Below, piece by piece: positions 3,216 to 53,684 of a stretch of 64,000 bases of DNA (positions within the stretch are counted from its first letter, which is position 1; each line of letters opens with the position of its first letter). The DNA is from Closterium sp. NIES-65 (lineage: Eukaryota; Streptophyta; Zygnematophyceae; Desmidiales; Closteriaceae). Made by a program: the position numbers and the translations under genes. The stretch lies in contig CANXME010002497.1 of assembly GCA_948144175.1 (NCBI GenBank), positions 434,001-498,000 on the forward strand. The letters run 5' to 3'. The notes under the pieces are model-generated. The model was not told the origin of the DNA. It did not search any database and saw nothing but the letters and a program-made list of their open reading frames with translations.

Positions 3216-6200
3216 ATGGCTACCCCAAGTGTTCTCGCTTTTGACGCTGAGGGTCGGGCCATTGACTTTGAGGTCTGGGTAGATGACCTGCAGCTTTTCC
3301 TACACTGCGATAGGGCAGACGGTCTCTCCCTCTTTGACCTCACCTCTGGCGCCTCCCCTGCCCCTGCTGCTGACGCTGACGCCACTGTTCGCTCCCAGTG
3401 GGCCACGCGCGATGCTGCTGCACGTCTTGCTATGCGTCGCCACCTCCCTACCTCCGAGCGCGCGCACTTTAGTCAGAACAAGAGTGCTCAGACCTTGTAC
3501 GACGCTGTAGTTGCGCGCTACTCCTCCCCTGCCACTGCTGCACTGAGCCGTCTCATGCTACCGTACCTCTTCCCTGACCTTAGTGCCTTTCCCACAGTCG
3601 ATGACCTCATTACGCACCTCCGCACTAGTGACACTCGCTACCGGCTGCGCTTCCTGCTGACTTCTGCGCCAAGAACCCCCCCCCCCCATGTACATCACTC
3701 TCTACTACTTAGTCACTCGCCTCCCTGACTCCCTTCGCGTAGTCAGAGACCACTTCCTCTCAGTCTGTCCCACCACCCTCACTGTTGACCTCCTCGAGAA
3801 GTCCCTCCTAGCGGCCGAGAAGAGCATAGTCGCTATAGGGGCCTCTCGTGGTGACCCGCGCACCCCCATCTTTGAGGGGTGTTCCCCCTCCCCCCTGCTG
3901 CCCTCTGTTGCCTTTGCTGCTGCGGCCGACCTTCTTGGTCTTGAGTCGGTCGGTGCGGCGTCTGCCCCTAGCGGGAGACGCCGCTCTGGCAAGGGCAAGG
4001 GGGGCAGGAGCACTGGAGGGGCGAGCGGGGGCGGTGGAGGTGGAGGTGGAGGCGGCGGGGGGAGTGGGGGTGGCGGTGGGAGTGGTGGTGGGGGTGGAGG
4101 TGTCGGTGGCGGCAGTGGAGGCGGAGGCGGCGGCGGCGGTGGTGGTGGGAGCGGAGGTGGCGGCGGTGGAGGAGGCGGCGGAGGCGGCGGTAGTAGCGGA
4201 GGCGGCGGAGGTGGCGGAGGCGGCGGAGGCGGCGGGGGTGGCGGTGGAGCTGGTCGCGGGTCTACGCAGAGGAGTGGCTCCGGTGGTGGTCCGCGCTAGC
4301 AGCAGCAGCGCGGTCGTGAGACCCTGTCCCCGCAGCAGCTCCGTGAGTGGTACACTGCACGCCAGCGGGGTGGGGGTTTTGGTCCGTGCACCTACGTCCT
4401 GCGCACCGGCGACCGTGCGGGTGAGCAGTGTGAGGGTGCACACCCCACCCAGCGCTGCTTTGGCCGCCTGACGGATGCGTGGCGTCAACAGTTCTCGGAG
4501 GCCTCCGAGATCCCTTGCTGGGGCGAGCTGTCTAGGGCGGGTGTTGCCATCTATGATCTTGATTTTGATACTATTCTTTCTGCCATGTATGCTGTGTCTA
4601 TTAGTGATGAGGGTGACTGTTACCGCTGTTTCCCGCCCAATCCGGGCATTGAGACTGCTGCTCTAGGTAGTGGTGAGGCGGCTGCCCTAGGTGCTTGCGA
4701 CGCTGCTGCTCTAGGTGCTAGTGCGTCTGCGTCCTCAGGTACTCGTGAGTCTGCGCTCTCAGGTACTACGTCGGCTTCGGCCTCCCTCACCTTCACCCTT
4801 GACTCTGGGGCTTCTCGCTCCTTCTTTCGGGACCGCACCACACTCACGCCGCTTAGTCGGCCGGTTGCGGTGTCTCTGGCTGACCCCTCTGGGGGTCGTG
4901 TCCTGTCTCACTTCTCCACGGTCCTCCCGTGTTCGGCGGCTCCCTCTGGCACCCTGTCTGGTCTCCACCTCCCCTCGTTCTCTACGAACCTGGTGAGTGG
5001 TGCTGACCTACAGGATGGGGGAGTACACCAGTTCACTCCTGCGCGTCAGCGGGTGACGCACTGCACAGAGGCTAGCACAGGCCGACACCTGGCTACGTTT
5101 ACCCATCAGCCGGGGTCGAGCCTGTACACACTGACCACTGCGTCTCCTCCAGTTGTTGAGTCTGGTAGGGTCACTGCGTCGGGTCAGGTGTTTGCTGCAG
5201 CGTCCAGGTCTGGTCATGAGTCTGCCCCGTGTTCGTGTCGTCTCCTGTCTCACGAGACTCTTCTCTGGCATCACCGCCTTGGTCACCCCTCTCTGCTTCG
5301 GCTCAGAGGCATGGCCTCCCGTCTTCTTGTTTCTGGTCTCCCTCGGTCCCTCCCTCCCCTTCCTCAGGGCCCTGGCCCTACCTGTGTCCCCTGTGTAGAG
5401 GGGCGCCAGCGGGCTGCCCCTCACTCCTCCCAGTTTCCTCCGACAGAGGCCCCGTTGCAGACGCTTCACATGGACGTGTGGGGCCCAGCCTGCGTCCGTG
5501 GACAGGGTCACGAGTGCTACTTCCTGCTCGTTGTTGACGACTACTCGCGTTACACCGCAGTCTTCCCCTTGCGCAGCAAGGATGATGTCACTGAGGTGCT
5601 GATCGAATGGATCCGCGCAGCTCGTCTCCAGCTCAGGCAGAGCTTTGGCTCGGACTTTCCTGTTCTACGTCTGCACTCGGACAGAGGCGGAGAGTTTTCA
5701 TCTGGCCTTCTGAGAGCCTACTGTCGCGCACGAGGCATCCGTCAGACCTTCACGCTTCCGGACTCCCCGCAGCAAAATGGGATTGCTGAGCGCCGCATTG
5801 GCATGGTCATGGACGTCACTCGTTCGTCTATGATGCATACGGCTGCTCCCCATTTTCTGTGGCCGTTTTCGGTGAGGTACGCGGCGCATCAAATCAACCT
5901 ACACCCCAGGGTCTCCAGGCCGGAGACCTCCCCAGCCTTGCTGTGGACGGAGAAGGTTGGCGATGCGTCGGCGTTCCGGGTCTGGGGATCTCGGGCGTTT
6001 GTCCGCGACTTGTCTGTGGACAAGCTGTCCCCTCGTGCAGCTCCTTGCGTCTTCCTAAGGTTCCCCCCTAACGCGCCTGGGTGGCAGTTCTACCACCCCA
6101 CCTCTCGCCGTGTTCTGTCCTCCTAGGACGTCACGTTTGACGAGTCGGTCCCCTACTACCGCCTCTTCCCCTACCGCACTCCGTCCCTCCCCCCGCCGCC

Positions 6201-9200
6201 GCTCTTCCTTGTACCAGGTCCCCCTCCGGTAGACCCCCTCCCCCCTCAGGGTCCGTCCCCTTCAGGTGTGTCCCAGGTAGACGCAATCGAGCCTGTCGAG
6301 GTCACTGGTGACTCTGGTGCTGCTGAGGGTGCTGAGCTTGGGGGTGCTGCGACTGGGGGTGCTGAGCCTGGGGGTGGTGAGCCTGGGGGTGCTGAGTCTG
6401 AGGGAACTGCGCCTGGGGTTGCTGAGCTTGGGGGTGCTGAGCCTGGGGGTGCTGCGACTGGGGGTGCTGAGCCTTACAATGCTGAGCTTGGGGGTGCTGA
6501 GTTTCAGGGTACTGCGCCTGGGGTTGCTGAGCCTGGGGGTATTGAGCCTGGGGGTGCTGAGCCTGGGGGTGCTGAGCTTGGAGGTGCTCCGCCTGGGGGT
6601 TCTCCGGGTGCTTCGTCTCTGCGGGAGCCACTCTCTCCACGGGAGCTGTGCGAGTGGTTTGCCCGGCGCTGGAGGTGTGCTGCTGGTGCAGGAGGTTCTT
6701 CGGCTACTGAGGGTGCTGCTGTCGCGGGTCCCGGAGGTACTCGTACTGGGAGTACTGGAGCTGCTGGGCCTGCGGGTTCGACTGGAGCTGGTGCTGCTGA
6801 GGGTGTTGGAGCTGAGACTACTGCTGGCGGTCCTGCTGCGGGTACTCCTGAAACTGCTGGAGGTTCTGGCTCTACTGAAGGTGCAGTTGGAGCGGGTGCT
6901 CCTGCTGGGGGTGCTGGTGCTGTACCTGCTGTGTGTGGCGTTGCCGCGCGGCCTCGACCGTACTTCGTTCCACTCCTGTAGCAGGTTCTTGGTCTTCCGC
7001 CTTCTAATGGTCCTCCTCCTTCTTTAGAGTGTCCACAGCCAGTCCCGTCATAGTTACAGTTGCAGCCTTCCTCCCCTTTGCCTGCTCCTTCTCCCTACAC
7101 TGGTCCTACTGGAGGTCTTGCTGAGCGTCGTGAGCCTGCGTCTCGCCCTGCGTCGCCTGTCCGTGCTGCTCGCGCTAGTGGTCGTGGTTCGCGACAGCGT
7201 CCTCCTCCTGTCCCTGGCACGCACAGGATGTCTCTGCGTCCGTCCACTGCTCCTCTGCATGCCCCTTTTCCTTGTCCTCCTGCGTCCTCTCTTCCTGCTT
7301 TTGCCGACCCGGAGTCGGACTCTCTTCGTGCTGCGAGTCCTACTGTCACGCGTCTCCTGGCTACTGTCGTCACTGACCCTTCCTTCGAGTCCACTGCTGC
7401 GTCTACCTTAGTTGCTGAGCTTGTTGACTTTGCTGCTCGCTGTTGCCTAGACTACGTTGCTAGTCTTGTAGCTGAGTCTGAGTCTGTCTGTCCTCCGTCC
7501 GTCGGGGGTGAGTGTGCCCTTGGCACGGACGTCCTTGAGGACAGGCAGGAGGATTTCCAGTGCTTGGCTGCTGCTTCACCTCATCTTGTGTCCGTATCGC
7601 TTATCCCTGAGGGAGACCCGGATGCACTTGACATCCCGACTCCGCGCTCTTACGCGGAGGCGATAGAGGGTCCCTACTCCTCTCAGTGGCAGGCAACTAT
7701 GGATGCAGAGATGGCTTCCTGGAAGTCCACAGGCACCTACGTTGACGCTGTCCCCCCTCCTGGGGCGAACATCGTCAGTGGCATGTGGATCTTCAGGGTG
7801 AAGCGGCCGCCGGGTTCTCCGCCTGTCTTCAAGGCGCGTTACGTGGCTCGTGGCTTCAGTCAGCGGCAGGGAGTTGACTACTTTCAGACCTTCTCTCCCA
7901 ACCCAAAGATGACCACTCTTCGGGTACTGCTGCACGTTGCTGCTCACCGTGACTACGAGCTGTGTCAACGGGAGTTGGGTATTGGCCCCGTCCTCGCTTG
8001 GGCGGAGCCGACTTCGTGGTCGGGTGTGAGGGGAGCAGCCGACCTGTAGCAGTGGGTGAGCTGGTCGACGAGGAGGTCGACCTGCACGGGGAACCACTGC
8101 ACGGGCGCCGACTTCAGGGTGGCGCCGACTTCAGGGAGGTCGTCTTGGGAGTCGACCTGTGGAGGACGTCAACTTGGTGAAGCGGACTTCTGCGGTTGGC
8201 TAACGGACTGCTAGTCGACCTGTTAGTGGTCGACTGGACCTGGTGGTCGACGAAGGAGGGGCCGACGTCGACCTTGACTCAGGGCGCCAAGCAGGAAGAC
8301 GCCGAGCAGGAGGACGCCGCCCTGGAGGCCTGGTTGGCGTCCCGTGCGTCTGCACGGCGTCCGGACCCCGGACGCCGATCTGGGCGTCGGGTCCCGACAC
8401 CGACCTGGGTGTCTAGTCGGCGTCCAAGGAGGAGGGACGCCGCTCTGGAGGTGTGGTCGGCGTCCCGGGCGTCTGGACGCCGACCAGGGGGTTCGGAAGG
8501 CGTCCTGGGCGCCTGGACGCCAGACTGGGGACGCCGGGCATGCGTGACCGGCTACGGACTACGTGAGCCGACCAGGCGTGGTTGCCCAGTTGATCGGGAT
8601 ACCCGGGCGACGTGCGCGAGTGTCGCCAGGGTGGAGACTGCGAGGCAGACCCCGGGGGTGGTATCCCGAGGTCGACGTGGCCGGTGGGCACAGTCGCTGG
8701 CGTGGAGTCTGCCAGGCGTCTGCGTTGCGCACATGACAGGGAAGTGCGCACCAACCAGCTGCGCGCACCTGCGAAGCAGGTGCACCGTTGTCCTGCGGGT
8801 GCAACGCTGGGCAGCCGACTTGGTGCAGCGCTGGCACACCGTGGACTTGCAACGTTGGCGAACCGCTACCCTGCTACGCTGGAGGTCGACCAGCAGCCTA
8901 GCTAGCTCTGATGTAGTCAATGTTGCCAATGTTGTTGCCACCATTGTTCTGAACTTTTCCTAGTGAAACTCTTGCCAATTTTCCCCGTGAACTAGCAAGT
9001 AGTGTGTGCACAAGGAAAACGACTAAGGACTAACGAACGCAGAGATCACACGAGCACATGTGCCTAGCCCGTAGCCTAGCTCCCGTTGCTGCAGTTATCT
9101 CCGCAAGCTGCACTCTCTTGACTTCAGCACTGCTTTCTTGCAGGGCAGCCTGCACGAGGAGATCTGGCTGCGCCGCCCACCTGGCTTCACTGGGTCTTTC

Positions 9201-10693: not shown

Positions 10694-10984
10694 ATGAGGC
10701 CTAATGATGAGGGATGAGGAGAGTGGAGGTTGTAGAATGATTAATGATGGAGAATGGAGGATGGGGTAGGGGAAGCAGAAGAAAAGAGCGGGTAAGATCG
10801 GTGCTTGGAAAGCTCACAAGAAGAAAACAGATGATGAATGGTTCTGAGTGGTTCATATCAGAAGAAAGAAGTCACGTACATGAAAGGAGTGGGTGAGACT
10901 GTGGGTTCTGTGTCTAAACTAGCAGTTAATTGCATTGACATTAAACTGATTTGGTCGAATCTGCGGTTTTCCAATGCAGCTCAC
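10694..10984 (-). other. LRR intron remnant flanking copia A
   Basis: This is non-coding sequence between the copia insertion and exon 1 of the LRR gene. The donor GTGAGC lies at 10984-10979 on the minus strand. Nothing else is seen. Confidence 0.6.
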
Positions 10985-12307
10985 CTGTGAGAGTGTTTTC
11001 CCCGAGGGCCAAGAATGCAAGCTGGGGTAAACTGGCGAGGCGTGGGGGAATGCTCCCTGTGAACTTGTTGAATCCGAGGTCCAGAGCTCTGAGATACGTG
11101 GGCAGATTCGAAAACGGCTTCAAGCAGCCCGAGAAATTGTTGTGGCTCAAAAAGAGGCCATTCCAAAAAGAAATTGAATTAACCTCAAACTTGCAGTTTG
11201 CTGGAACGGCTCCTGTGAGGCGATTGCGCGAGAAGTAAGTTTGTGCCGCGATGCCCTGGCACACAATCTGCGGGAATGAGCCCGAAAACAAACTGTTTGA
11301 AACGTCGATGACCATCACGTCTTTGCCGAAGCGGATCGTGTTGAAGTCGCCAGTCAACCTGTTCCCGCTTACGCTAAAAGTTTTGGACATTATTTGATAC
11401 CCGCTCAGGTCGCCAGAAAGGCTGTTCTGACTTAAATCAATAGAGCCCGGTCTCTTGAGCAGAGCACGAGGAATATTCCCGGTTAGCCGATTCTGGGACA
11501 AAAGTATCGCCGACCTGGGGTCCATCAGCGTAGTTGCGAGGGCAGGAGGAATCGGGCCGGACAGACTATTATTCATGAGATCCAGAGACCATGAGTTAGC
11601 CGCATACGCAGCAGGACGTTTTGGCGAAGAAATTATTGGCGTCGAACACATCACTAAGCATCGGCGTGCGAAAAATGGAGAGGAAGAGGACCAGAGAAAC
11701 AGTTATCGCTAAGCTCGAGGACAACGAGATTTGTAAGCCGGGAGAACGATTGCGGGACTGAGCCAGAAAGCCAGAGACCATTCAGATTGAGAAATTCGAG
11801 ATCCGTCAACTGGCCGATAGATTCGGAGAGGGTTGCGGGGAACTTTCCGCCAGGTTTGCGCGCAGTACGGTTGCAAAGGCGAGGCGTGGGTGGGTGGGGG
11901 GCGCTGTTCTTAGAGATGGATAGAAACTTAACACCCTTCCCACCGCAGCAAGCCACGCCGGGCCACGTGCACCCGTTCGGCTTGTTCGCCGGGATAGGTA
12001 TCAGCGCGGCCGTGAAAACCGCCCTGAGAGCCGTGTTTCTAGCCGCGGAAGCCGCCAGGGATGAGTCACTGCTGGTTCCGCCCACCCCTGCTGCGTCGGA
12101 CGCAAAATCTATCGCATAGTAGCAGGGATCAGGAGGCATCTTCGGTACAAGCTGCCTCGATATGGGCTGCCAGCGGAAAGCCGTCGTCGGTGAGCAGTAG
12201 AGGAGTAGCAGGAGGAGGCACGCTGTAGTAGTAACGTGAGCGCGCAACGCGTCGTGAAGAACAGTGACGGAACGAGCGACTCGAGGGTGATATACTACAT
12301 TCGCCAT
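10985..12307 (-). CDS. LRR receptor-like protein, exon 1
   Basis: The ATG at 12307-12305 opens a 217-residue frame. A hydrophobic signal segment lies near residues 28-38 (ACLLLLLLYC). An LRR N-terminal cap follows (CTWPGVACCGGKG, about residues 110-124), then leucine-rich repeats such as LVVLELSDNCFSGPLP and later LSQNRLTGNIP and FNKFTGSIPPRL. The protein should be secreted or displayed at the cell surface; its ligand is unknown. A reading-frame break lies near 11655, where the first frame meets TAG-TGA and the repeats continue in another frame to 10985. This may be a frameshift or a small unrecognised intron. The last base before donor GTGAGC is 10985. Its 5' flank is duplicated elsewhere (24345-24640 with 33150-34115, and 57392-58310). 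Confidence 0.72.
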
Positions 12308-24711: not shown

Positions 24712-24757
24712 AGTGCCGGCGCCTTCTGCCAGCCCCCTAGAAGGGGGTTTTGCACTG

Positions 24758-25566
24758 TGTCGGAAACCTCCTTGCCCTCACCCGGCTAGCTCATTGCCCA
24801 CCCTGCTACCCTTGTTCCTGCCCACACATCCCTCCCCTCATCCTCGTTCCACCTGTCCCATCTCTGCTCATATTGTCCCTTGGCGCTCTCCCATCACCCT
24901 TGCCTTGTCTTCAACGACTCCCCCCCCCTTTTTCTCCTTTCTCTGTATCGTTCTGCTACCCCACTTTCTGCTTACCCTTATCTTTGTTCATTTCGTTCTC
25001 AGCCCCTTCCACTAAATGCCCTTCCCCTAATCCATCAGACTGCGGATATGGCTTCGCTAAGAGACTGCTTATCTTGAGAAGAATTCACAGTAAATTGCGA
25101 AAACAATCACGCAGTAGCAGTCCCATGGCCCAGGAACCTCTAATATTGCACCCACCCTAGCCTAGCTAAGCATGGCTACCAACAGATGAGTGCTAGCAGC
25201 CGAGCTTCGCCACCCTTGCAGTTATCCTGCCTTCCTCCAGCTGGCGGGTGTGACTTCCAGCTCCCCCTGGACTCGGTGTCTGCACACAATCAAAAAAACA
25301 AACACATGCATCCCCTCAAACCCCATTCACCCCCTTCCGCCACGTAAGCTCGCCATCCCTTCTCCCAGCCAGCCACAGGTTCGTCCCAACCTTTACCCAC
25401 TGCCTGCCAATGCCGAGCTGCCCTCCACCTCCTGCTATTGCTTCTACACCCCGTTATCCACTTTCTCGACTATATACAAATGTACACATTGTTCCTCCTT
25501 GCCTCAATTACAGCCCCTCCCCTTTCTGTCAGCGTTCTTTTAGGATTTCCCTCAAGAACTCTGACA
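24758..25566 (-). repeat. 3' LTR of the gypsy element
   Basis: On the minus strand it begins TGTCAGAGTTCTTGAGG and ends GGTTTCCGACA, 809 bp. Positions 25011-25566 match 32218-32772 almost exactly. The remaining 253 bp (24758-25010) is repeated at 25569-25821. Confidence 0.8.
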
Positions 25567-25568
25567 GC

Positions 25569-25821
25569 TGTCGGAAACCTCCTTGCCCTCACCCGGCTAG
25601 CTCATTGCCCACCCTGCTACCCTTGTTCATGCCCACACATCCCTCCCCTCATCCTCGTTCCACCTGTCCCATCTCTGCTCATATTGTCCCTTGGCGCTCT
25701 CCCATCACCCTTGCCTTGTCTTCAACGACTCCCCCCCCCTTTTTCTCCTTTCTCTGTATCGTTCTGCTACCCCACTTTCTGCTTACCCTTATCTTTGTTC
25801 ATTTCCTTCTCAGCCCCTTCC
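25569..25821 (-). repeat. Extra 253 bp LTR fragment beside the 3' LTR
   Basis: A near-identical copy of 24758-25010, separated from the full LTR by the two bases GC. The arrangement (end of one LTR, two bases, start of the next) looks like a two-LTR junction. It is followed directly by the end of the integrase frame. Confidence 0.8.
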
Positions 25822-27005
25822 TGCCCCCTCCCGTGACGCATCGCCGCCGCCCTCGCACGCGTCATGGGACCAGAGGGGCTTCCCTTGCCTTTCTCCGAGC
25901 GAATCCTCGCCACATTGGTCACGTGATCGGACACTTGCTTGCCCTTGCCATCCTCCAGTATGATCACCCCCGACGGCTTGACTTCCTTGACTGCCCACCG
26001 TTGCTGTGATAGCCCCACATCCAGGGCGTGCTGCCGCTGCCGCCTCAGGTACACCTTCTCCCCTTCTTGCATCCCTGCTTCCTTCTTCCTGCCCTTTATC
26101 TCTTGCCGCTGCTTGTACCTCTCAATGTCCCGCAGCTGAGCGACGTGCAGATTCTCCATGGCTGCGGGCAGCAGCCGCCGTAGGTACGCTGCTCGCGCGT
26201 CGGCTACTGCGACCCATTTTTCTGCCGATCCTGTGGTCACCACGTCCAGGAGGAGCTTTGGTGCCCCCACGGGCATCACTGGCTCCTTGCCAAACAGCAG
26301 GTAATACGGCGACACGTCCTTGAGTGCTGCTTGCTTGCTAAACCGGTATCCAGCCATAACCCAGCAGAGCCTTCTGTCCCAATCCCGCTTATGCTCCTCA
26401 CCGTAAGCCCTTAACCCTCTTTTCACCGTCTGCACCAGCCGCTCGGTCAACCCATCGCTCTGCGGATGATAACGGGACGTGCAGCGATGCCTGATCCCCG
26501 TTGCCCTGAGCAGCTCATCGAACGCTCCTTTGAATTCTGTGCCTTGGTCCGTCAGCACCTCTCCGCATGCCCCCAGACGCGTAACCACCATCTCCTCAAA
26601 CGCTTCTGCCACCGCCTCTGCCGTTTTGTGCACTAAGGGTTTGGCTTCCGCCCATTTGCTTACGTGTTCCACCATCAGCAGTATGTAACGTCTTCCCTTC
26701 GTGCTGAGTGGAAGCTCCCCCGCGATGTCCAGCGACCACCTATAGCCCAAGCTCACCACCGGCAACGGTTGTAGCTCTGCCTTCTCCCGTTCCAGCACCG
26801 CCCTGTTCCGTCCGCATGCCTCGCATTTCCACACCCAGTCCTTAACCTGCTTGCGCAGGCCTGCCCACCACCATCCGGTTTGTACCAGCTGCTGCGTTCT
26901 TAGTGGCCCGTAATGCCCCAGCTTCTCGTGTACTTCTTTGATGATACCTTCCCTCTCCTCTGGTGCGGGCACGTGCTTCCATCCTTCTCCTGTCCTCAGC
27001 TGCAC
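25767..27005 (-). CDS. Integrase of the gypsy element
   Basis: The H2C2 zinc-binding domain reads HEKLGHYGPLRTQQLV then CEACGR. The DDE core is intact by eye: first Asp in SLDIAGELP, second in VLTDQGTEFKG, Glu in SDGLTERLVQ. A basic C-terminal part (VYLRRQRQHALDV) and a tail ending KGKQKVG follow. The frame is shifted relative to RNase H: natural reading RWFKGQVQLRTGEG overlaps the wrong-frame end of the upstream ORF, pointing to a 1-base change near 27010-27040. The last 55 bases overlap the extra LTR fragment. Confidence 0.88.
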   Translation of the reverse strand: MQLRTGEGWKHVPAPEEREGIIKEVHEKLGHYGPLRTQQLVQTGWWWAGLRKQVKDWVWKCEACGRNRAVLEREKAELQPLPVVSLGYRWSLDIAGELPLSTKGRRYILLMVEHVSKWAEAKPLVHKTAEAVAEAFEEMVVTRLGACGEVLTDQGTEFKGAFDELLRATGIRHRCTSRYHPQSDGLTERLVQTVKRGLRAYGEEHKRDWDRRLCWVMAGYRFSKQAALKDVSPYYLLFGKEPVMPVGAPKLLLDVVTTGSAEKWVAVADARAAYLRRLLPAAMENLHVAQLRDIERYKQRQEIKGRKKEAGMQEGEKVYLRRQRQHALDVGLSQQRWAVKEVKPSGVIILEDGKGKQVSDHVTNVARIRSEKGKGSPSGPMTRARAAAMRHGRGQEGAEKEMNKDKGKQKVG

Positions 27006-28414
27006 TTGCCCCTTGAACCAGCGGTAAAACTCCCCTCCGCTCTTACTCTAGCTGTCACCGCTCCTGCCTCTGTTGTTGCCCCCTGAATCCATGCTAGGGC
27101 TGCCTTATCTTCCCATATGTCTGCAGGTCCGCCTCGCCCTTCTCCCCACTGCCCCCCTTGGTCTGCTTCCTTCGCCAGCGCCATTAGGCACGCTGAGGGC
27201 TGCATCACCGGCGGGTTCCTCGAGAGCCCGTCAACGTGCTGCATGGTTTTCCCCGGCCTATGCCTAATCTCAAAGTCGTACTCTTGGAGCTTCATTGCCC
27301 ACCGCGCGTTCCTGCCCGTCAAATCCGGCGTCTGCATGAGCCACAGCAGGGGTTGGTGATCCGTCACCAGGGTAAACTTCCTCCCGTGTAAGTACACCCG
27401 AAAGTGCTTAACTGCCCACACTACCGCTAACCCCTCTCCCTCGTACGATGAGTAGTTGCTCTCCGCTGCATTGCAGCTGCGGCTTGCGAAGGCCACTACC
27501 TTCTCCACCTCCCCCTTCATCTGAGCCAGGACTGCACCCATGCCCACGCTGCTCCAGTCAGTGTAGAGCACGTAAGGCAGATCGGCTCTAGGTAGCTCCA
27601 GCACTGCTCCATTCTTTACGGCGCCCATGAGGTCCTGCACGGCCCTCTCCTGGTCTGGTCCCCACTCCCACTTGCAATCCTCCCTCAATAGTTGATTCAG
27701 TGCTTGCGCTCGGCTGCTGAAGTTTGGCACAAACTTCCTGTAATAGTTGAGGAAGCCTAGCAATGCGCGCAGGGCACTCCTGTCCTTCGGTGTTGACACA
27801 CGATCCAGCACTTCTACTTTCGCCTTCTGTATGCCGATCCTCCCCCCTACCACTTCGAATCCTAGGTACGCCACCGTGCTCTGGCCAAACTTGCACTTCC
27901 CTGGGTGACAGGTCATCCCGGCGTTCTGTATCGCACTCAGGACCGTCTCGACATCCTTCACATGCGCACTGCTGTCCCTGCTGAACACGATCACGTCGTC
28001 GATATAGCAGGCGGCGTTCGGCACGTCGCGCAGAACCTGATCCATAATGCGCTGGAATTCCGGCGAGGCCGACTTCAAGCCAAATGGCAGCGTCTTCCAC
28101 TCGTATTGCCCATCCGGCCCGTGGAAGGCTGTCTTCTTCCGGTCAGCTTCTATGATGGGTATCTGGTTGAACCCCTGCCGCAGATCCAGGATGGAGAAGA
28201 CCACCGCTGCCGCTAACTTGTCGAACAGCTCGTCCGGCGTGGGCGTTTGGTACCGTTTCATCACCGTCACCTTATTGAGCCCGCGGTAATCCCCACACAT
28301 TCGCTTTGACAGCACTTGCCCTGTGAGGTCTGTTCTAGCAGCTACTACCGTGGCTGCTGCGTATTCCGAGTTGGATTTCCGTATGAACCCGGCTTCCCTC
28401 AGCTCTTGGCATTT
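26996..28414 (-). CDS. Reverse transcriptase and RNase H of the gypsy element
   Basis: In the same frame as the upstream ORF, separated from it only by TAG at 28415-28417. RT motifs: CGDYRGLNKVT, SILDLRQGFNQIPI, LPFGLKSASPEFQR and the catalytic YIDDVIVFS, all intact. RNase H: YTDWSSVGMGAVLAQ, EGEGLAVVWAVKHFR, TDHQPLLWLM and DGLSRNPPV. If the TAG is read through or is recent, RT would form part of a single Gag-Pol protein, as is usual for many plant gypsy elements. Confidence 0.9.
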   Translation of the reverse strand, partial: KCQELREAGFIRKSNSEYAAATVVAARTDLTGQVLSKRMCGDYRGLNKVTVMKRYQTPTPDELFDKLAAAVVFSILDLRQGFNQIPIIEADRKKTAFHGPDGQYEWKTLPFGLKSASPEFQRIMDQVLRDVPNAACYIDDVIVFSRDSSAHVKDVETVLSAIQNAGMTCHPGKCKFGQSTVAYLGFEVVGGRIGIQKAKVEVLDRVSTPKDRSALRALLGFLNYYRKFVPNFSSRAQALNQLLREDCKWEWGPDQERAVQDLMGAVKNGAVLELPRADLPYVLYTDWSSVGMGAVLAQMKGEVEKVVAFASRSCNAAESNYSSYEGEGLAVVWAVKHFRVYLHGRKFTLVTDHQPLLWLMQTPDLTGRNARWAMKLQEYDFEIRHRPGKTMQHVDGLSRNPPVMQPSACLMALAKEADQGGQWGEGRGGPADIWEDKAALAWIQGATTEAGAVTARVRAEGSFTAGSRGKCS

Positions 28415-31400
28415 CTATGTGCAGATCTGTAGTTCTTCTGCTGTCATCCTCCGCCGCCGCTGGTACACTGGAATCTCAGTGGTTAACTCGATGCTGACTT
28501 CCGCCATGTTGCACCTGCCCACCTCCTTCAGTGTGTACGCGAACGCCTGGCGATATTTCGCAAGCACCTTCCTTAGTTCTGTCGCGTCCTCTTCGGTGAC
28601 GCCATCTCCGATCTCCCACTGATGCTCTGCTGCTGCTGGCGCCGCTGGCTCCTTCTCCCTCATCCCCCGCGCTGACCCTTCCGCCTTCGCTGGCTCCGTC
28701 GGTTGGCCCTGTGCCTTCTCTTGCGATCGCTCTCCCTGTGTCTTCGTCTCTGCTCCTACCTCCTTCGTTGCCGCCATCAGGGCGAATTCTCCTGATCCGA
28801 ACTCACGCTCATAGCTCTCCCTTCTCCGCTGCCTCTTGATGGCCCCCTCCACCCAGTCCAAGTCCTCTCGCTTCTTGTTCACGGCTGCCTCTTCCCGAGC
28901 GGCTGGCAGCTCGATCTGGGTCGGTTCTGCATACACCGCTGGTACTTCGTCCTCCTCTTCCCACGGATACACCCACCTCTTCTCCAGCGGATGCCCCAAC
29001 TGGTGCTGGGCCAGATCATTCGCGTGCATCTCTCCCAGCATGGCCCTAGCGAGGGCCTTTTTAGCAACCGAGCGCTCCGTGGGTGGCTGCACTGCTGCCG
29101 CCTTGTCTCGTTTTCGCTCCCACCGAAGCCGTGAGTGATACATCTGGATAGTCGCCACCAGCCAGTGCATGACGTTCAAATCCATGGCTCTCCCCAGAGC
29201 ACGCCTCCTCGCCGCTTCCGTCACCTCTGGATGTGCGGTCGCATCTTCCATGAAACCCATGGCCAATTCCCGCTCTAGCGCTGTCGGTTCCTGCCATTCT
29301 CCCGCTGTACAGTCGTACACCATTCCTGGCCCCGGGTCTTCCCCGTGCATCTTAAAGGCCGCTGCGCCCTCGTATGACACAAACGTGGGCCAAGCCCGCC
29401 GCGGCTTCCCTATCTCGTTACACGCGAACTGCGCCGGATGATCCGGCTGTGTCACCGGTGCGGGCATCCTCCCTACTTCAAGGATGTCTTCCACCAACAA
29501 GGGCACGGGGCGTTCCATCAGCGACAAGCGGTACTGCAGGGCTGCGTTCGTTACTCCATTCGTCCAGTAGCGGCGCACCCTATGCGCCCGGCTGCCCGTC
29601 TGCGCCCCATCCACTACAATCCCCGGGCCCAGTACCCCCGTTACTTCCTCATGTGCCACTTGGATCTGCTCCCGCACATCCCCCTCCATGTCGACGTTCT
29701 CCACGATGTAGAGCACTTCCCCCTGCACCCGTTTGAGGATTCGCAGCACTCGCACTAACTCCCTGAAAAGGCTGCTCCTTTCGTCCCTCATGCCTCTACC
29801 TGCCCCTGCCCGCGAATATCCTTGACACTCCCAGCCCGCAATGACCACATCAATCTTCCCCCATCCCCTTATGGTCTGCTCCGTCACCATCCGTATGTCG
29901 CAGGCCTGAATGTGCGTGCTTTGTTCCAACGCCAAGGCCGTCAGCTGGTGCGGGTATCTCTTTTGCAGCTGCTCCGCGTGATTCCATGCCATCTTCACCG
30001 ACTCCATGTCTGATTCCACCAGTATCCACTTCTCCACGTAGGCCCCAGCCTTCAGGACTGCTTCTAAGCCCGTGCCGATGCCGCCAAAGAGCTCCAATAC
30101 TACTGTGGGACCCAGTAGCCTCTTGGTGTCCGTGCATATCTGCATTAGGTCTCCGTCGTCCCCGTCAGTCCCCTCCGCTGGCGTATGCATCCTCGCGGTT
30201 TGCTGCCAGGAGGGTACTCCTAGCTCTTCCCGCAATTCTGCTTCGGTGCACTGGTAAGCTTCCCTCGGCTCTCTCCTTACGAAGCGCACTGGTAACGTGC
30301 CAATGGGGCCGTCATCCTTCCAATAGTGCACGCGATACTGCATCTTCTCCTCCCACCTGCAGATTGTCGAGCCGATGCCAAAGAGGTACTCCACCCCTAT
30401 GAGCAGGTCGAAGTCCAACGAGTCCGACACTCCGCAGTGCACCCTCAGCGTGCACTCCTCTGGTGTACCCGGATTCAGCACCAAGGCCATGGACTGCCGA
30501 GTTTTTGGCATCCACTTCGCCTCTCCTCCATCCGCCGTCATAAGCAGGTAGCGCTCCGGTATCAGTCGCTCAGCCTTGTCCAGCTGCAGCTTCTCCGCCA
30601 ATTGCTTGCCGATTAATACATGTGCTGCTCCCGTGTCCACTATGGCTCTCTGGGCTCGTAGCCCCCCAACCGTGATTGCCCCTGGTTCGATCGTCAGCAC
30701 CGTGGCCTGACAGATCATGCGATCGCGCGGATGCCGAAACGCCGCTCCTTCTCTGTCCTCGGTCGCGCTTGCCCGCCTCCTCGGGCCATCTTCCCGCCTT
30801 TCGTCCTCCCTGAAGAGTTGTCTGCGCGCGCCGTTCCTCAGGCCTAGCTCCTCTCGCTCCCGTGCGGGTTGTGCCATTAGCATGAACTCTGGCTCTTCCG
30901 AGTCTTCCTCTTCCTGTGCCACCATCGCCGGCTGCTTCTCCTCCACTGCTTCTAGTTCTGCTAATTGCGCCCGCACCCGCGCCATGATGGCTTGCCGATC
31001 TTCACCTCCCTCCGCTCCTCGCCTGTCCCTGCGGTTTGCGTAGCAATCTGCTTCCCGATGCCCCTTTCTTCCACAGCGTGCGCACACTGGGGCCCCCGGA
31101 CAGTCCCGTCGCAAATGCTCGCGACTCCCGCAGAGCGAACAGGCTGCTGGGTTCCGGCAATCCCTGCGCAGATGTCCCGGCTGCCCACAGTTATGGCAAC
31201 GTCGGGTCTCTTCCCTTCCCCTTTCCTCCACCTCCTGATACGCGGACGCGGCTGCCCATGCCGGCCGTCTCCTCTCGCAACCCCGATCCACTGTTCTCTC
31301 GACCTCGTAGAGCCTGCGTCCCGTCTCCACTCGTTTAACAATTTCGTACGCCTCTTTCAGCGTCGCTTCCGCGCCCAGCTCGAACACCCGCACTTCCACG

Positions 31401-32200
31401 TCCTGCCGCAGTGGTTGACTCAGGCCATGGACGAACTTCCCGATCAGTCGTCCCTGGTCTCCACAGTTCATGTCCTCCCCCAATTCCACCAGCCTCCCGT
31501 AGTATGCCAGCAGCGATTCTCCCTCTCGCCTTCTGAACGACCGGAATTCGACCACTCGCTCCGCCGTTTGCGCAGGAAATTGCTCTCGCAACATTGCTAG
31601 GAACCTCGCCGTAGGATCCCTTTCGCCCGGGGCCCGCCCTGCCGCCCACTCCAACAGCTCCTTGCGAGATATGCGGTAATAGGTCTCTGCCTCCCCGGTC
31701 AGCGTATTGGCCAGCCCTCGGAAGAACTCCTCTGGGTCCAGCTGATCCTTCGCCCATCGCACTTGCAGATTTTCCAACTGCATGATGTAGTTCTTCAGGC
31801 TCGGACCTCGTCGAGCATCGCCGGAGAATCTTTCCGGCACTTCTATCTTCGGCATCTGAATGTATTTCCAGCGCTGCATCATCGTCTCGTCCTCCGTGCC
31901 TTGCCACGAGGCGCTACGCTGATATCCCACCGGTCCACCCATTTGCGACCGCGGTCGCGCCTGCGGCCCCTGCGCTCCCTCCGATCCAGTCGGCGCGTTG
32001 CCTCCGCCGCCTGCGCTTCCGGTCTGAGCACCTCCCCTGGGGCCGGTTGCTCCCTCACAGGGCCCAGTCTGGCCTTCTACATCTCCGCCTCCCGGCGGCA
32101 GGTTATTCTCCCGCTGATTCCCGTCTCCTCCCATCATCCTCTCGTCCTGTCCTTGCGTAGCTCTGACTGCTTCTATCCACCTTCCTGACCGCAATCGCAT
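28415..32200 (-). CDS. Gag-protease-methyltransferase polyprotein (1261 aa)
   Basis: ATG at 32200. Residues 1-105 are low-complexity. Residues 110-295 form the Gag core (PERFSGDARRG, FHGLSQPLR-like). Three CCHC knuckles follow at about 335-386 (CHNCGQPGHLRRDC, CSLCGSREHLRRDC, CARCGRKGHREADC). The aspartic protease at about 500-620 has IVDTGAAHVLIG. A cytosine C5-methyltransferase spans about 699-1016. A charged linker comes next, then the start of RT (TTEIPVYQRRRRM) before TAG at 28415. Gag packages the RNA and protease matures the polyprotein. The methyltransferase would probably modify DNA, perhaps the element's own copies. The gag ATG lies only 17 bp from the 5' LTR, so leader and primer site seem to be deleted. 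Confidence 0.92.
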   Translation of the reverse strand: MRLRSGRWIEAVRATQGQDERMMGGDGNQRENNLPPGGGDVEGQTGPCEGATGPRGGAQTGSAGGGGNAPTGSEGAQGPQARPRSQMGGPVGYQRSASWQGTEDETMMQRWKYIQMPKIEVPERFSGDARRGPSLKNYIMQLENLQVRWAKDQLDPEEFFRGLANTLTGEAETYYRISRKELLEWAAGRAPGERDPTARFLAMLREQFPAQTAERVVEFRSFRRREGESLLAYYGRLVELGEDMNCGDQGRLIGKFVHGLSQPLRQDVEVRVFELGAEATLKEAYEIVKRVETGRRLYEVERTVDRGCERRRPAWAAASAYQEVEERGREETRRCHNCGQPGHLRRDCRNPAACSLCGSREHLRRDCPGAPVCARCGRKGHREADCYANRRDRRGAEGGEDRQAIMARVRAQLAELEAVEEKQPAMVAQEEEDSEEPEFMLMAQPAREREELGLRNGARRQLFREDERREDGPRRRASATEDREGAAFRHPRDRMICQATVLTIEPGAITVGGLRAQRAIVDTGAAHVLIGKQLAEKLQLDKAERLIPERYLLMTADGGEAKWMPKTRQSMALVLNPGTPEECTLRVHCGVSDSLDFDLLIGVEYLFGIGSTICRWEEKMQYRVHYWKDDGPIGTLPVRFVRREPREAYQCTEAELREELGVPSWQQTARMHTPAEGTDGDDGDLMQICTDTKRLLGPTVVLELFGGIGTGLEAVLKAGAYVEKWILVESDMESVKMAWNHAEQLQKRYPHQLTALALEQSTHIQACDIRMVTEQTIRGWGKIDVVIAGWECQGYSRAGAGRGMRDERSSLFRELVRVLRILKRVQGEVLYIVENVDMEGDVREQIQVAHEEVTGVLGPGIVVDGAQTGSRAHRVRRYWTNGVTNAALQYRLSLMERPVPLLVEDILEVGRMPAPVTQPDHPAQFACNEIGKPRRAWPTFVSYEGAAAFKMHGEDPGPGMVYDCTAGEWQEPTALERELAMGFMEDATAHPEVTEAARRRALGRAMDLNVMHWLVATIQMYHSRLRWERKRDKAAAVQPPTERSVAKKALARAMLGEMHANDLAQHQLGHPLEKRWVYPWEEEDEVPAVYAEPTQIELPAAREEAAVNKKREDLDWVEGAIKRQRRRESYEREFGSGEFALMAATKEVGAETKTQGERSQEKAQGQPTEPAKAEGSARGMREKEPAAPAAAEHQWEIGDGVTEEDATELRKVLAKYRQAFAYTLKEVGRCNMAEVSIELTTEIPVYQRRRRMTAEELQICT
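29153..30106 (-). other. C5 cytosine DNA-methyltransferase domain
   Basis: Residues about 699-1016 of the polyprotein. Motif I is VVLELFGGIGTGLEAVL (SAM binding). Motif IV is AGWECQGYSRAG with the catalytic Cys at residue 792; the usual Pro before Cys is Glu here. Motif VI is YIVENVD. A motif VIII-like segment, GSRAHRVRRYWTNG, recalls the AHRARYFWGN of DNMT3. Motif IX-like TALERELAMGF and motif X-like RALGRAMDLNVMHWL close the domain in canonical order. No stop or shift interrupts it. Retrotransposons with captured DNA methyltransferases have been reported in Klebsormidium and dinoflagellates, as I recall. Whether this is the same capture is not known to me. Confidence 0.9.
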
Positions 32201-32217
32201 TCGGACTGCGTGATTGT

Positions 32218-32772
32218 ACTAAATGCCCTTCCCCTAATCCATCAGACTGCGGATATGGCTTCGCTAAGAGACTGCTTATCTTGAGAAGAATTCACAGTAA
32301 ATTGCGAAAACAATCACGCAGTAGCAGTCCCATGGCCCAGGAACCTCTAATATTGCACCCACCCTAGCCTAGCTAAGCATGGCTACCAACAGATGAGTGC
32401 TAGCAGCCGAGCTTCGCCACCCTTGCAGTTATCCTGCCTTCCTCCAGCTGGCGGGTGTGACTTCCAGCTCCCCCTGGACTCGGTGTCTGCACACAAGCAA
32501 AAAAACAAACACATGCATCCCCTCAAACCCCATTCACCCCCTTCCGCCACGTAAGCTCGCCATCCCTTCTCCCAGCCAGCCACAGGTTCGTCCCAACCTT
32601 TACCCACTGCCTGCCAATGCCGAGCTGCCCTCCACCTCCTGCTATTGCTTCTACACCCCGTTATCCACTTTCTCGACTATATACAAATGTACACATTGTT
32701 CCTCCTTGCCTCAATTACAGCCCCTCCCCTTTCTGTCAGCGTTCTTTTAGGATTTCCCTCAAGAACTCTGAC
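32218..32772 (-). repeat. 5' LTR of the gypsy element, 3'-truncated
   Basis: Matches 25011-25566 with one or two differences. The 253 bp that should follow on the minus strand is missing, and coding sequence starts almost at once. Confidence 0.8.
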
Positions 32773-33150
32773 AGCTGCTCATCTGGGAGTGGATAGTCCT
32801 ACCTTGATACTCAGCGAGGCGTGTAAACAAGTGGGTAGGCAGATTACGATCGACAGCCGGGGTAATACCAAAGGGGATTTCCCCTAAAACCTTTACCTTT
32901 ACCTTTACCAATAAACCCAGACCAATTAGGGTTGAGGCTCCCGAATGGCATGCCATCCCCCTCCGTCTTGTTGAGATATACAACACAGAATGTATCACCG
33001 ATTCACCGTGCCCTTCGTTCCGTTGAGATATACAACACAGAAAGTATCACCGATTCACTGTGCTACGTCAAGTTATAGCGATAATGGACCACACTTAACC
33101 TTTCACGAATCTCTTCGCTTTCTATATTCCTGATTCCGCCTCTAGCCGTC
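32773..33150. repeat. Flank with a 52 bp direct repeat
   Basis: TTGAGATATACAACACAGAA begins two units at 32971 and 33023, each continuing TGTATCACCGATTCAC or close to it. ACCTTTACCTTTACC near 32891 resembles the tail of a SINE whose head may be at 24656. No gene is seen. Confidence 0.5.
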
Positions 33151-49955: not shown

Positions 49956-52900
49956 ATGGCTACCCCTAGTGTCATCGCTTTTGACGCTGAGGGTCGGGCC
50001 ATTGACTTTGAGGTCTGGGTAGACGACCTGCAGCTGTTCTTACAGTGCGATAGGGCAGACGGCCTCTCTCTCTTTGACCTTACCTCTGGCGCTTCCCCTG
50101 CCCCTGCTGCTGATGCTGACGCCACTGTTCGCTCCCAGTGGGCCACGCGCGACGCTGCTGCACGTCTTGCTATGCGTCGCCACCTCCCTACCTCCGAGCG
50201 TGCGCACTTTAGTCAGTACAAGAGTGCTCAGACCTTGTACGACGCTGTAGTCGCGCGCTACTCCTCCCCTGCCACTGCTGCACTGAGCCGTCTCATGCTA
50301 CCGTACCTCTTCCCTGACCTTGCTGCCTTTCCCACCGTGGCTGACCTCATTACGCACCTCCGCACTAGTGACACTCGCTACCGCGCTGCACTCCCTGCTG
50401 ACTTCTGCGCCAAGAACCCCCCCCCCATGTACATCACTCTGTACTTCCTAGTCACTCGCCTTCCTGACTCCCTTCGTGTAGTCTGGGACCACTTTCTCTC
50501 AGTCTGTCCCACCACACTCACTGTCGATCTCCTCGAGAAGGCCCTCTTAGCAGCGGAGAAGAGTATAGTCGCTGTAGGAGCCTTTCGTGGTGACCCGCGC
50601 ACCCCCATATTTGAGGGGTGTTCCCCCTCCCCCCTGCTGCCCTCTGTTGCCTCTGCTGCTACGGCCGACCTCCTTGGTCTTGAGTCGGTCGGTGCGGCGT
50701 CTGCCCCTAGCGGGAGACGCCGCCCTGGCAAGGGCAAGGGGGGCAAGGGAGCTGGAGGAGCGGGCGGTGGAGGTGGAGGTGGAGGCGGTGGGGGTAGTGG
50801 GGGTGGCGGTGGGAGTGGAGGTGCGGGTGGGGGGGTCGGTGGCGGCGGTGGAGGCGGAGGCGGCGGCGGCGGTGGCGGTGGGAGCGGAGGTGGCGGAGGA
50901 GGCGGCGGTGGAGGCGGCGGTGGAGGCGGCGGTGGAGGCGGCGGTGGAGGCGGCGGCAGTAGCGAAGGCGGCGGAGGCGGTGGGGGTGGCGGTGGAGCTG
51001 GTCGCGGGCCTTCGCAGAGGAGTGGCTCCGGTAGTGGCGCGCGCCAGCAGCAGCAGCGCGGTCGTGAGACCCTGTCCCCTCAGCAGCTCCGTGAGTGGTA
51101 CACTGCACGCCAGCGGGGTGGGGGTTTTGGTCCGTGCACCTACGTCCTGCGCACCGGCGACCGTGCGGGTGAGCAGTGTGGGGGTCCGCACCACACCCAG
51201 CGCTGCTTTGGCCGCCTGACGGACGCATGGCGCCACCAGTTTCCGGAGGCCTCAGAGATTCCTCGCTCAGGCGAGCTGTCTAGGGCGGGTGTTGCCATCT
51301 TTGATCTTGACTTTGATGCTATTCTCTCTGCCATGTATGCTGTGTCTCATAGTGATGAGGGTGACTGCTACCGCTGTTTCCCGCCCAATCCGGGCATTGA
51401 GGCTGCTGCCCTAGGTGCTTCCGACGCTGCTGCTCTAGGTGCTAGTGTGTCTGCGTCCTCAGGTACTGGTGAGTCTGCGCTCTCAGGTACTACGTCGGCT
51501 TCGGCCTCCCTCACCTTCACTCTTGACTCTGGGGCGTCTCGCTCCTTCTTTCGGGACCGCACCACTCTCACGCCGCTTAGTCGGCCGGTTGCGGTGTCTC
51601 TGGCTGACCCCTCCGGGGGTCCTGTACTGTCTCGCTTCTCCACAGTCCTCCCGTGTCTGGCGGCTCCCTCTGGCACCCTCTCTGGTCTCTACCTCCTCTC
51701 GTTCTCGACGAACCTGGTGAGTGGTGCTGACCTACAGAATGGGGGAGTACACCAGTTCACTCCTGCGCGTCAGCGGGTGACGCACTGTACAGAGGCTAGC
51801 ACAGGCCGGCACCTGGCTACGTTTACTCGTCAGCCGGGGTCGAGTCTGTACACACTGACCACTGCGTCTCCTCCCGTTACTGAGTCTGGTAGAGTCGCTT
51901 CGTCCCGTCAGGTGTTTGCTGCAGCGTCTAGGTCCGGTCTTGAGTCTGCCCCCTGTTCGTGTCGTCTCTTGTCTCATGAGACTCTCCTCTGGCACCACCG
52001 TCTTGGTCACCCCTCTCTGCTTCGGCTCAGAGGCATGGCCTCCCGTCTTCTTGTGTCTGGTCTAACCCGGTCCCTCCCTCCCCTTCCTCAATGCCCTGGC
52101 CCTGCCTGTGTCCCCTGTGTCGAGGGGCGCCAGCGGGCTGCCCCTCACTCCTCCCAGTTTCCTCCGACAGAGGCCCCGTTGCAGACGCTTCACATGGACG
52201 TGTGGGGCCCGGCCCGCGTCCGTGGACAGGGTCACGAGCGCTACTTCCTGCTCGTTGTTGACGACTACTCGCGTTACACCACGGTCTTCCCCTTGCGCAG
52301 CAAGGGTGATGTCACTGAGGTGCTGATCGACTGGATCCGCACAGCTCGTCTCCAGCTCAGGCGGAGCTTTGGCTCGGACTTCCCGGTTCTGCGTCTGCAC
52401 TCGGACAGAGGCGGAGAGTTTTCCTCTAGCCTACTGCAAGCCTACTATCGCGCACGAGGCATCTGTCAGACCTTCACGCTTTTGGACTCACCGCAGCAAA
52501 ATGGGATTGCTGAGCGCCGCATTGGCATGGTCATGGACGTCGCTCGTACGTCTATGATGCATGCGGCTGCCCCCCATTTTCTGTGGCCGTTTGCGGTCAG
52601 GTACGCGGCGCATCAGATCAACCTCCACCCCAGGGTCTCCAGGCCGGAGACCTCCCCAGCCTTATTGTGGACGGGGAAGGTTGGCGATGCGTCGGCGTTC
52701 CGGGTCTGGGGATCTCGGGCGTTTGTCCGCGACTTGTCTGCGGACAAGCTGTCCCCTTGTGCTGCTCCTTGCGTCTTCCTGGGGTTCCCCCCTGACGCGC
52801 CTGGGTGGCAGTTCTACCACCCCACCTCTCGCCGTGTTCTGTCCTCCCAGGACGTCACGTTTGACGAGTCGGTCCCCTACTACCGCCTCCTCCCCTACCG

Positions 52901-53684
52901 CACTCCGTCCCTCCCCCCACCTCCGCTCTTCCTTGTACCAGGTCCCCCCCAGGAAGACTCCCTCCCCCCTCAGGGTCCTGCCCCTTCAGGTGTGTTCCAG
53001 GTAGACGCAGTCGAGCTTGTCGAGGTCACTGGTGACTCTGGTGCTGCTGGGGGTGCTGAGCCTGGGGGTGCTGGACCTGGGGGTGCGGAGTCTGGGGGTG
53101 CTGAGCCTGGGGGTACTGCGTCTTGGGGTGCTGAGCCTGGGGGTGCTGAGCCTGGGGGTGCTGAGCTTGAGGGTGCTACGCCTGGGGGTGCTGAGCCTGG
53201 AGGTGCTGCGCTTGGGGGTGCTGAGCCTGGAGGTGCTACGCCTGGGGGTGCTGGGAGTGGAGGTGCTCCGCCTAGAGGTTCTCCGGGTGCTTCTTCTCGC
53301 TGGGAGCCACTCTCTCCACAGGAGCTGCGCAAGTGGTTTGCCCGGCGCTGGCGCCGTGCTGCTGGTGCTGGAGGTTCTTCGGCTGCTGAGGGTGCTGCGG
53401 TCGCGGGTCCCAGAGGTGCTCGTACTGGGAGTACTGGAGCTGCTGGGCCTACGGGTTCGACTGGAGCTGGTGCTGCTGAGGGTGTTGGCGCTGAGACTAC
53501 CGCTGGCGGTCCTACTGGGGGTGCTCCTGGTGCTGCTGGAGGTGCTGCTGGAGCGGGTGCTCCTGCTGAGGGTACTGGTGCTGTCCCTGCTGCTTCTGGC
53601 GTCGTCACGCGGCCTCGTACTTTGTTCCACTCCTGCAGCATGTTCTTGGTCTTCCTCCTTCTACTGGTCCTCCTCCTCCCTTAG
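49956..53684 (+). CDS. Gag-protease-integrase of copia C (1242 aa)
   Basis: ATG at 49956 after TCGTC. Gag core at residues 1-250 (WVDDLQLFLQCDRADG, LSRLMLPYLFPDL). Gly-rich linker at about 265-355. A Cys/His segment (EQCGGPHHTQRCF) near 410 is not a standard CCHC knuckle. Protease TLDSGASRSFF near 523. HHRLGHPSLLRLRGM near 680. Integrase with HMDVWGP (Asp near 747), LHSDRGGEFSS (near 816) and NGIAERRIGMV (Glu near 852). A Gly-Ala-Glu-Pro repeat linker follows. The last ~25 residues are out of frame because of a 4-base deletion near 53611 relative to copia A. Confidence 0.93.
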   Translation: MATPSVIAFDAEGRAIDFEVWVDDLQLFLQCDRADGLSLFDLTSGASPAPAADADATVRSQWATRDAAARLAMRRHLPTSERAHFSQYKSAQTLYDAVVARYSSPATAALSRLMLPYLFPDLAAFPTVADLITHLRTSDTRYRAALPADFCAKNPPPMYITLYFLVTRLPDSLRVVWDHFLSVCPTTLTVDLLEKALLAAEKSIVAVGAFRGDPRTPIFEGCSPSPLLPSVASAATADLLGLESVGAASAPSGRRRPGKGKGGKGAGGAGGGGGGGGGGGSGGGGGSGGAGGGVGGGGGGGGGGGGGGGSGGGGGGGGGGGGGGGGGGGGGGGGSSEGGGGGGGGGGAGRGPSQRSGSGSGARQQQQRGRETLSPQQLREWYTARQRGGGFGPCTYVLRTGDRAGEQCGGPHHTQRCFGRLTDAWRHQFPEASEIPRSGELSRAGVAIFDLDFDAILSAMYAVSHSDEGDCYRCFPPNPGIEAAALGASDAAALGASVSASSGTGESALSGTTSASASLTFTLDSGASRSFFRDRTTLTPLSRPVAVSLADPSGGPVLSRFSTVLPCLAAPSGTLSGLYLLSFSTNLVSGADLQNGGVHQFTPARQRVTHCTEASTGRHLATFTRQPGSSLYTLTTASPPVTESGRVASSRQVFAAASRSGLESAPCSCRLLSHETLLWHHRLGHPSLLRLRGMASRLLVSGLTRSLPPLPQCPGPACVPCVEGRQRAAPHSSQFPPTEAPLQTLHMDVWGPARVRGQGHERYFLLVVDDYSRYTTVFPLRSKGDVTEVLIDWIRTARLQLRRSFGSDFPVLRLHSDRGGEFSSSLLQAYYRARGICQTFTLLDSPQQNGIAERRIGMVMDVARTSMMHAAAPHFLWPFAVRYAAHQINLHPRVSRPETSPALLWTGKVGDASAFRVWGSRAFVRDLSADKLSPCAAPCVFLGFPPDAPGWQFYHPTSRRVLSSQDVTFDESVPYYRLLPYRTPSLPPPPLFLVPGPPQEDSLPPQGPAPSGVFQVDAVELVEVTGDSGAAGGAEPGGAGPGGAESGGAEPGGTASWGAEPGGAEPGGAELEGATPGGAEPGGAALGGAEPGGATPGGAGSGGAPPRGSPGASSRWEPLSPQELRKWFARRWRRAAGAGGSSAAEGAAVAGPRGARTGSTGAAGPTGSTGAGAAEGVGAETTAGGPTGGAPGAAGGAAGAGAPAEGTGAVPAASGVVTRPRTLFHSCSMFLVFLLLLVLLLP

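Follow-up and report, generated by a model that had tools for sequence, protein, structure and literature searches.

The window, a stretch of 64,000 nucleotides from a contig of the green alga Closterium sp. NIES-65, carries on its reverse strand an inserted element with Ty3/gypsy protein domains and, between the protease and the reverse transcriptase (RT), a DNMT3-like C5-cytosine methyltransferase (MTase). The parts of this copy are listed below, where A and B denote two repeated segments, LTR the long terminal repeat and PBS the primer binding site.

24758..32773, (-) strand: whole inserted element, with TGTC at 32773-32770 and GACA at 24761-24758
32774..32777, (-) strand: flank adjoining the 5' end, CAGC, against CAGT at 24754-24757, an imperfect target duplication (3/4 bases)
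32218..32773, (-) strand: repeat A1 (probably the 3' part of U3, R and U5), 99.8% identical to A2
32310..32322, (-) strand: self-primer sequence within A1, supported by exact complementarity to the PBS and by covariation, and expected to lie at or near the 5' end of the RNA
25103-25115, (-) strand: second copy of the self-primer sequence, in A2
32205..32217, (-) strand: PBS, directly 3' of A1
28415..32200, (-) strand: open frame encoding gag (CCHC), protease and MTase, ending at a stop ahead of the RT
29153..30106, (-) strand: DNMT3-like C5-cytosine MTase domain
26996..28315, (-) strand: RT and RNase H
25767..27005, (-) strand: integrase with H2C2 zinc and rve core (Asp93, Asp153 and Glu188 in frame numbering), in a different frame in the window copy
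25822..25832, (-) strand: putative polypurine tract GGGAGGGGGCA, directly 5' of B1, its role suggested by position
25569..25821, (-) strand: repeat B1 (probably the 5' part of U3), 99.2% identical to B2
25563..25572, (-) strand: palindrome GACAGCTGTC at the B1^A2 border, a predicted internal integrase site
25011..25566, (-) strand: repeat A2
25010..25011, (-) strand: joint of A2 and B2, LTR end to LTR end
24758..25010, (-) strand: repeat B2, the 3' end of the element

An earlier note, made from the letters of this DNA, had placed a C5-MTase domain between the protease and the RT of a Ty3/gypsy polyprotein, and our analysis confirmed this arrangement, the domain being complete in the window copy. 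The Ty3/gypsy order of protease, RT, RNase H and DDE integrase was recovered with Pfam in the intact 2150-aa frame of another copy, L012. The single uninterrupted frame that had also been claimed is found in sister copies but not in the window copy, where a stop precedes the RT and the integrase occupies another frame. The MTase motifs of the window copy do follow the canonical order, not a rearranged one, and the match to C5-MTases was significant; among the matches listed, the closest sequence and fold were those of the DNMT3A/B catalytic domain (22-27% identity), in line with the DNMT3-like look that the note had ascribed to the motif VIII segment. The fold is predicted to be complete, and Pfam detected no DNMT3 N-terminal domains in the L012 frame.

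Counting copies, as the earlier note had suggested, revealed that the domain is no one-off. At least 122 MTase copies (a lower bound) were scored out of 1414 candidates in the alga's own genome (874 Mb), and the domain was present in 8/8 further loci that were chosen by their RT outside the scored MTase list, a count on which the idea of sister elements lacking it was rejected. The best protein matches of the element came from Closterium sp. strains NIES-53, -54, -65, -68 and Naga37s-1, which are zygnematophytes (the class was checked for Naga37s-1). Two scans of viral contigs found no relative.

The repeat layout, on which the earlier note is silent, was more surprising than the MTase. BLAST of the window against itself gave the repeat order A-coding-B-A-B, with an A pair of 560 bp (32777-32218 and 25570-25011, 99.8% identity) and a B pair (25821-25569 and 25010-24758, 99.2% identity). 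The two equal terminal LTRs of a conventional Ty3/gypsy element are not seen, the 5' end carrying A only and the 3' end A-B. Among 20 fetched copies, 12 share the A-coding-B-A-B layout, one (L019) has an additional A-B, one (L021) reads A-B-A-coding-B and six have no such A/B pair. A rearrangement specific to one copy was ruled out as the source of the layout, since copies with 97, 77 and 56% identity in the MTase show it as well.

Border alignment of the copies placed the start of the element at TGTC and its end at GACA. We examined the ends of 29 copies (20 loci, 8 end-piece pairs and the window) and had both ends in 26 rows; L014, C1050 and C334, for which one end was not found, were left out of the count of target duplications (TSDs). 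A perfect 4-bp TSD lay directly outside the ends in 23/26 rows, compared with 1/650 control pairings between flanks of different copies, and the three misses (the window, L018 and L023) were each one base off. Joining the flanks around a single copy of the repeat allowed pre-insertion sites to be recognized: the alignments were gap-free for L013, L016, L021 and C1191 and contained one gap for C1977. Given the TSDs outside the ends and these matched sites, TGTC and GACA are integration ends, with duplications as from a DDE integrase.

The window copy and L018 (C1801) are one insertion, with common flanks and joint on two contigs and 99.14% identity inside, and represent haplotypes or a segmental duplication. 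The window also holds two Ty1/copia-like elements (4585-8049 and 49956-55009, (+) strand; gag_pre-integrs, rve, SH3 and RVT_2) and a leucine-rich-repeat open frame (10944-11654, (-) strand). Several pre-insertion matches fell in or next to these Ty1/copia-like frames, and the sites of L013, L016, L021 and C1191 were matched by Ty1/copia-like sequence or its vicinity. Three further copies, L010, L023 and C1642 (L039, L040), are inserted within minisatellite arrays.

The limits of the reverse-transcribed LTR can be read from its two priming sites. The 13 nt directly after A1 are the complement of a stretch of A whose start lies 105-170 nt further upstream. In 19/21 rows this pairing is perfect; L016 shows a single mismatch and L022 two. 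When eight sequence types are compared, 97.1% of cells are paired, against 20-50% in slid controls, and 7/13 pairs have changed on both sides. Reverse transcription is hence predicted to be self-primed through this covarying 13-nt pairing. Of the other candidates, tRNA priming was rejected, no TGG start of a PBS being seen after A, and a hairpin after A was dropped in favour of the covarying pairing. With the PBS at the end of A and the polypurine tract directly before B1, the reverse-transcribed LTR is B-A, and the ends of the element therefore lie inside the LTR, at CCGACA-GC-TGTCA. This B^A border is exact in 13/15 listed rows, and a genome-wide count gave 188 occurrences of its 15-nt pattern (reversed control, 9). 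At 12 B^A sites for which the upstream stretch was fetched, the MTase was found at seven, no part of the element was matched at four, and one (C21) had gag in the fetched stretch, a decayed MTase further on and no RT match. C21 (L053, L067, L068) is a shortened copy with gag-protease, the decayed MTase, the integrase end and a B^A site, perhaps a non-autonomous derivative. In C1133 (L065, L066), B^A sites flank the coding part on both sides, which is likely a head-to-tail tandem.

In the downstream A-B unit, the right LTR end (at the PBS) is fused to the left LTR end (at the polypurine tract), a joint written A/B hereafter. The A/B joint is clean in three copies of subfamily a (the window, L013 and L017) and has an extra base in two others of that subfamily (T in L009, A in L010). 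Still within subfamily a, 8 nt of A are lost at a GGAAGGG microhomology in L015, and the joint of L011 runs on for about 275 nt, reaching the leader and gag. In L016, A plus 12 nt of the PBS is linked via a CGCAG microhomology to about position 131 of A. These joints differ between near-identical sisters, namely L015/L017 (99.51% identity inside), L013/L010 (99.55%) and L011/L009 (99.01%). Other joints are held in common: that of L013 equals that of L017, that of L023 equals that of L024, and L019 has two matching joints.

The copies represent 25 distinct insertions, comprising 16 of the form A-coding-B-A/B, one with a further A/B unit (L019), two opened in the other LTR (L021, A-B-A-coding-B with the TSD TCCC, and L016, with its deleted joint) and six of the form A-coding-B (L012, L020, L025, L027, C1977 and C2007). 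The less usual forms (A-B-A-coding-B, A-coding-B and the triple) have the same ends and duplications as the others.

We interpret these observations as a Ty3/gypsy family with a DNMT3-like MTase under selection, whose copies begin and end, flanked by 4-bp TSDs, at a site inside the LTR. Its integrase would probably act on two-LTR cDNA joined at the ends, predicted to be circles or concatemers, and cut it at the internal palindrome; to this reading we assign a probability of roughly 0.6. The RNA would start in A, and its 5' part would pair with the PBS and prime minus-strand DNA. Synthesis bounded by the PBS and the polypurine tract would then yield a linear B-A-coding-B-A molecule, and end joining would fuse the A end to the B start. 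Judging from the end sequences, the integrase would cut at CCGACA-GC-TGTCA; opening of the LTR adjoining the PBS would produce the usual A-coding-B-A/B, opening of the other LTR A/B-A-coding-B, and opening of one-LTR DNA A-coding-B. All forms among the 25 insertions can be explained if joined DNA with one, two or three LTRs is cut at B^A sites, and the genomic products themselves show the TGTC/GACA ends and target duplications. The A-coding-B copies could also stem from recombination after insertion. A-coding-B copies would lack the downstream A needed for terminal redundancy of the RNA, so the copies derived from two-LTR DNA should be those that replicate again. The MTase is predicted to methylate CpG sites of the element's own cDNA, at the integration step or ahead of it.

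One feature sits poorly with this route: a symmetric two-LTR circle predicts equal opening of both LTRs, and 16 copies were opened in the LTR adjoining the PBS compared with two in the other, leaving the bias (16/18 clear cases) unaccounted for. We put at about even odds the wider view of a lineage living by circle-junction integration, in which the site is the mid-LTR palindrome, every replicating copy passes through end-joined two-LTR DNA and the DNMT3-like enzyme may, by marking the cDNA, favour one of the palindrome's two occurrences (16:2).

The shared joints of L013/L017, L023/L024 and L019 also count against end joining, since an inherited joint or a tandem duplication would give them too. 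The split layout might indeed be inherited, with transcripts running through A2 into B2, the A/B joint templated, and an unusual reverse transcription producing a linear A-coding-B-A-B molecule that is inserted by its ends. The joints common to L013/L017 and to L023/L024, the dominance of one form (16/25 distinct insertions) and the same arrangement in the Klebsormidium element as described (PMC5890265) would fit such a route. However, joints differ in sisters more than 99% identical, they lie exactly at the PBS and the polypurine tract and display extra bases, microhomology and overrun, and A-B-A-coding-B with its own TSD is left unexplained; we consider inheritance of the layout unlikely, if the strongest of the competing explanations. 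Conventional insertion followed by unequal recombination among the repeats could have generated the odd forms, and L019 with its two alike joints and the tandem-like C1133 are what it would leave behind. It is nevertheless improbable, given that no B-A-coding-B-A provirus with its own duplication occurs among the 26 rows with both ends, that the TSDs flank A1 on one side and the last B on the other, and that L021 would require several exchanges. Finally, PAT elements have split direct repeats of this very layout (PMC4157794, PMC8969392), and a DIRS/PAT-type element served by a tyrosine recombinase in trans would share it; the encoded DDE integrase, the 4-bp TSDs and the TG...CA-type ends make this explanation very hard to sustain.

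The MTase in the main subfamily (a) is under purifying selection comparable to that on the RT and integrase. Values of pN/pS in subfamily a were 0.153 for gag-protease, 0.103 for the MTase, 0.132 for the RT and 0.099 for the integrase (10 copies, nine for RT and integrase; L018 left out), and those in subfamily c1 (3 copies) were 0.116, 0.110, 0.087 and 0.068, respectively. The MTase value of subfamily b was higher, at 0.340 (3 copies with few changes, 14 synonymous and 16 other). Between subfamilies a and b, the median dN/dS was 0.096 for the MTase and 0.047 for the integrase, marking the MTase as the less constrained of the two. Purifying selection on the MTase implies that the domain does something for the element.

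The catalytic loop is unusual. The catalytic Cys and the ENV motif that the earlier note had recognized are kept in 21/21 aligned rows, and so is the Glu-Cys of the loop (ECQG) in place of the Pro-Cys of DNMT3. The note had also flagged Glu for Pro as unusual; Pro precedes the catalytic Cys in most relatives outside the named Closterium proteins. That residue is Ser in 4/8 of the other, RT-chosen loci, and in L025 the Gln next to the catalytic Cys is changed too. Given that synonymous sites are near or at saturation between subfamilies, the Glu/Ser change is old and tolerated. The MTase might be kept for a non-enzymatic role (DNA or RNA binding, or Pol folding) without methylating; the substituted Pro, the further change in L025 and the absence of activity of the Klebsormidium enzyme in yeast, which its authors described as inconclusive (PMC5890265), point that way. 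With the catalytic Cys and ENV retained in all aligned rows and the fold predicted complete, we regard this as doubtful. Between repeat pairs, transitions were found at 18/738 CpG sites and 30/5399 other C/G sites, alongside 35 transversions (14 copies, L018 left out). The CpG excess fits methylated copies, of which the host's own methylation may be the cause. No clear contrast in CpG depletion was seen, the observed/expected ratio being 0.73-0.85 in 15 elements and 0.39-1.57 in flanks.

The closest described system is KnitGypsy-Dnmt3 of Klebsormidium nitens (de Mendoza et al. 2018, PMC5890265), which combines Gypsy domains with a Dnmt3 in Pol and repeats of a DIRS-like type and bears out the earlier note's mention of retrotransposon-captured MTases in Klebsormidium. 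By its published description, it shares with the Closterium element the Gypsy domains, the Dnmt3 in Pol and the A-coding-B-A-B repeats (PMC5890265), and the Closterium element is of the KnitGypsy-Dnmt3 kind. The two differ in that Closterium belongs to another algal class; for the Closterium element our analysis covers TSDs, ends within the LTR, variation of the joint, self-priming and the Glu/Ser variant, and the term "target site" has 0 occurrences in the main text of PMC5890265. The named protein matches of our element included no Klebsormidium sequence. The SymbioDIRS-Dnmt3 elements of Symbiodinium likewise have a Dnmt3 domain in Pol and A-coding-B-A-B repeats, but encode a tyrosine recombinase, whereas the Closterium element has a DDE integrase and TSDs (PMC5890265). 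The Symbiodinium enzymes methylated CpG in yeast, whereas the KnitGypsy domain did not, and the 2018 authors likewise inferred methylation of the element's own cDNA for the Symbiodinium DIRS elements (PMC5890265).

The A1-internal-B1-A2-B2 split direct repeats are also those of PAT/Ngaro-type elements, which have a tyrosine recombinase and no TSDs, the opposite of the Closterium element on both counts (PMC4157794, PMC8969392); Pfam matches at E<=0.001 in the intact L012 frame included no tyrosine recombinase. The predicted self-priming resembles that of the Tf1/Sushi group of Ty3/gypsy elements, in which the PBS is complementary to sequence of the element itself, not to a tRNA (PMC6317226); unlike these, the Closterium element has no Pfam-detected chromodomain (L012 frame) and its ends lie inside the LTR. 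For retroviruses, circle-junction integration was proposed in 1984 and later replaced by linear DNA (PMC11054761), and HIV-1 integrase cuts the 2-LTR circle palindrome in vitro (PMC1905944). The predicted integrase substrate in Closterium is palindromic as well (PMC11054761, PMC1905944). However, the retroviral palindrome arises where LTR ends are joined, and it is linear DNA that integrates, while the Closterium palindrome lies within the LTR and its use is shown by the copies (PMC11054761).

Split direct repeats have been used as a mark of tyrosine-recombinase elements, and their presence here with a DDE integrase and TSDs means that layout alone does not reveal integration chemistry. In our searches of open-licence PMC papers, we found no account of this combination except a figure legend on the Klebsormidium element (PMC5890265). 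If end-joined cDNA is indeed cut at an internal site, the family would provide a natural example of a route that was entertained for retroviruses for a long time and then abandoned; if the lineage lives by circle-junction integration, it would show how split direct repeats can originate without a tyrosine recombinase. With this MTase, the streptophyte case already described gains a further algal class, many copies and a changed catalytic loop under selection, making the family a good system for asking why a retrotransposon keeps a DNA methyltransferase.

Related MTases also occur in four Gypsy polyproteins from metagenome or NCBI proteins (P0063, P0064, P0072 and P0078), each with a C-terminal PHD finger and P0078 additionally with a G-patch. 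In P0064 the MTase precedes the RT, and in the other three it is placed between RNase H and integrase; these are perhaps separate captures. A further metagenomic protein of 1417 aa (P0066) combines Dam-type and C5-type methyltransferase domains.
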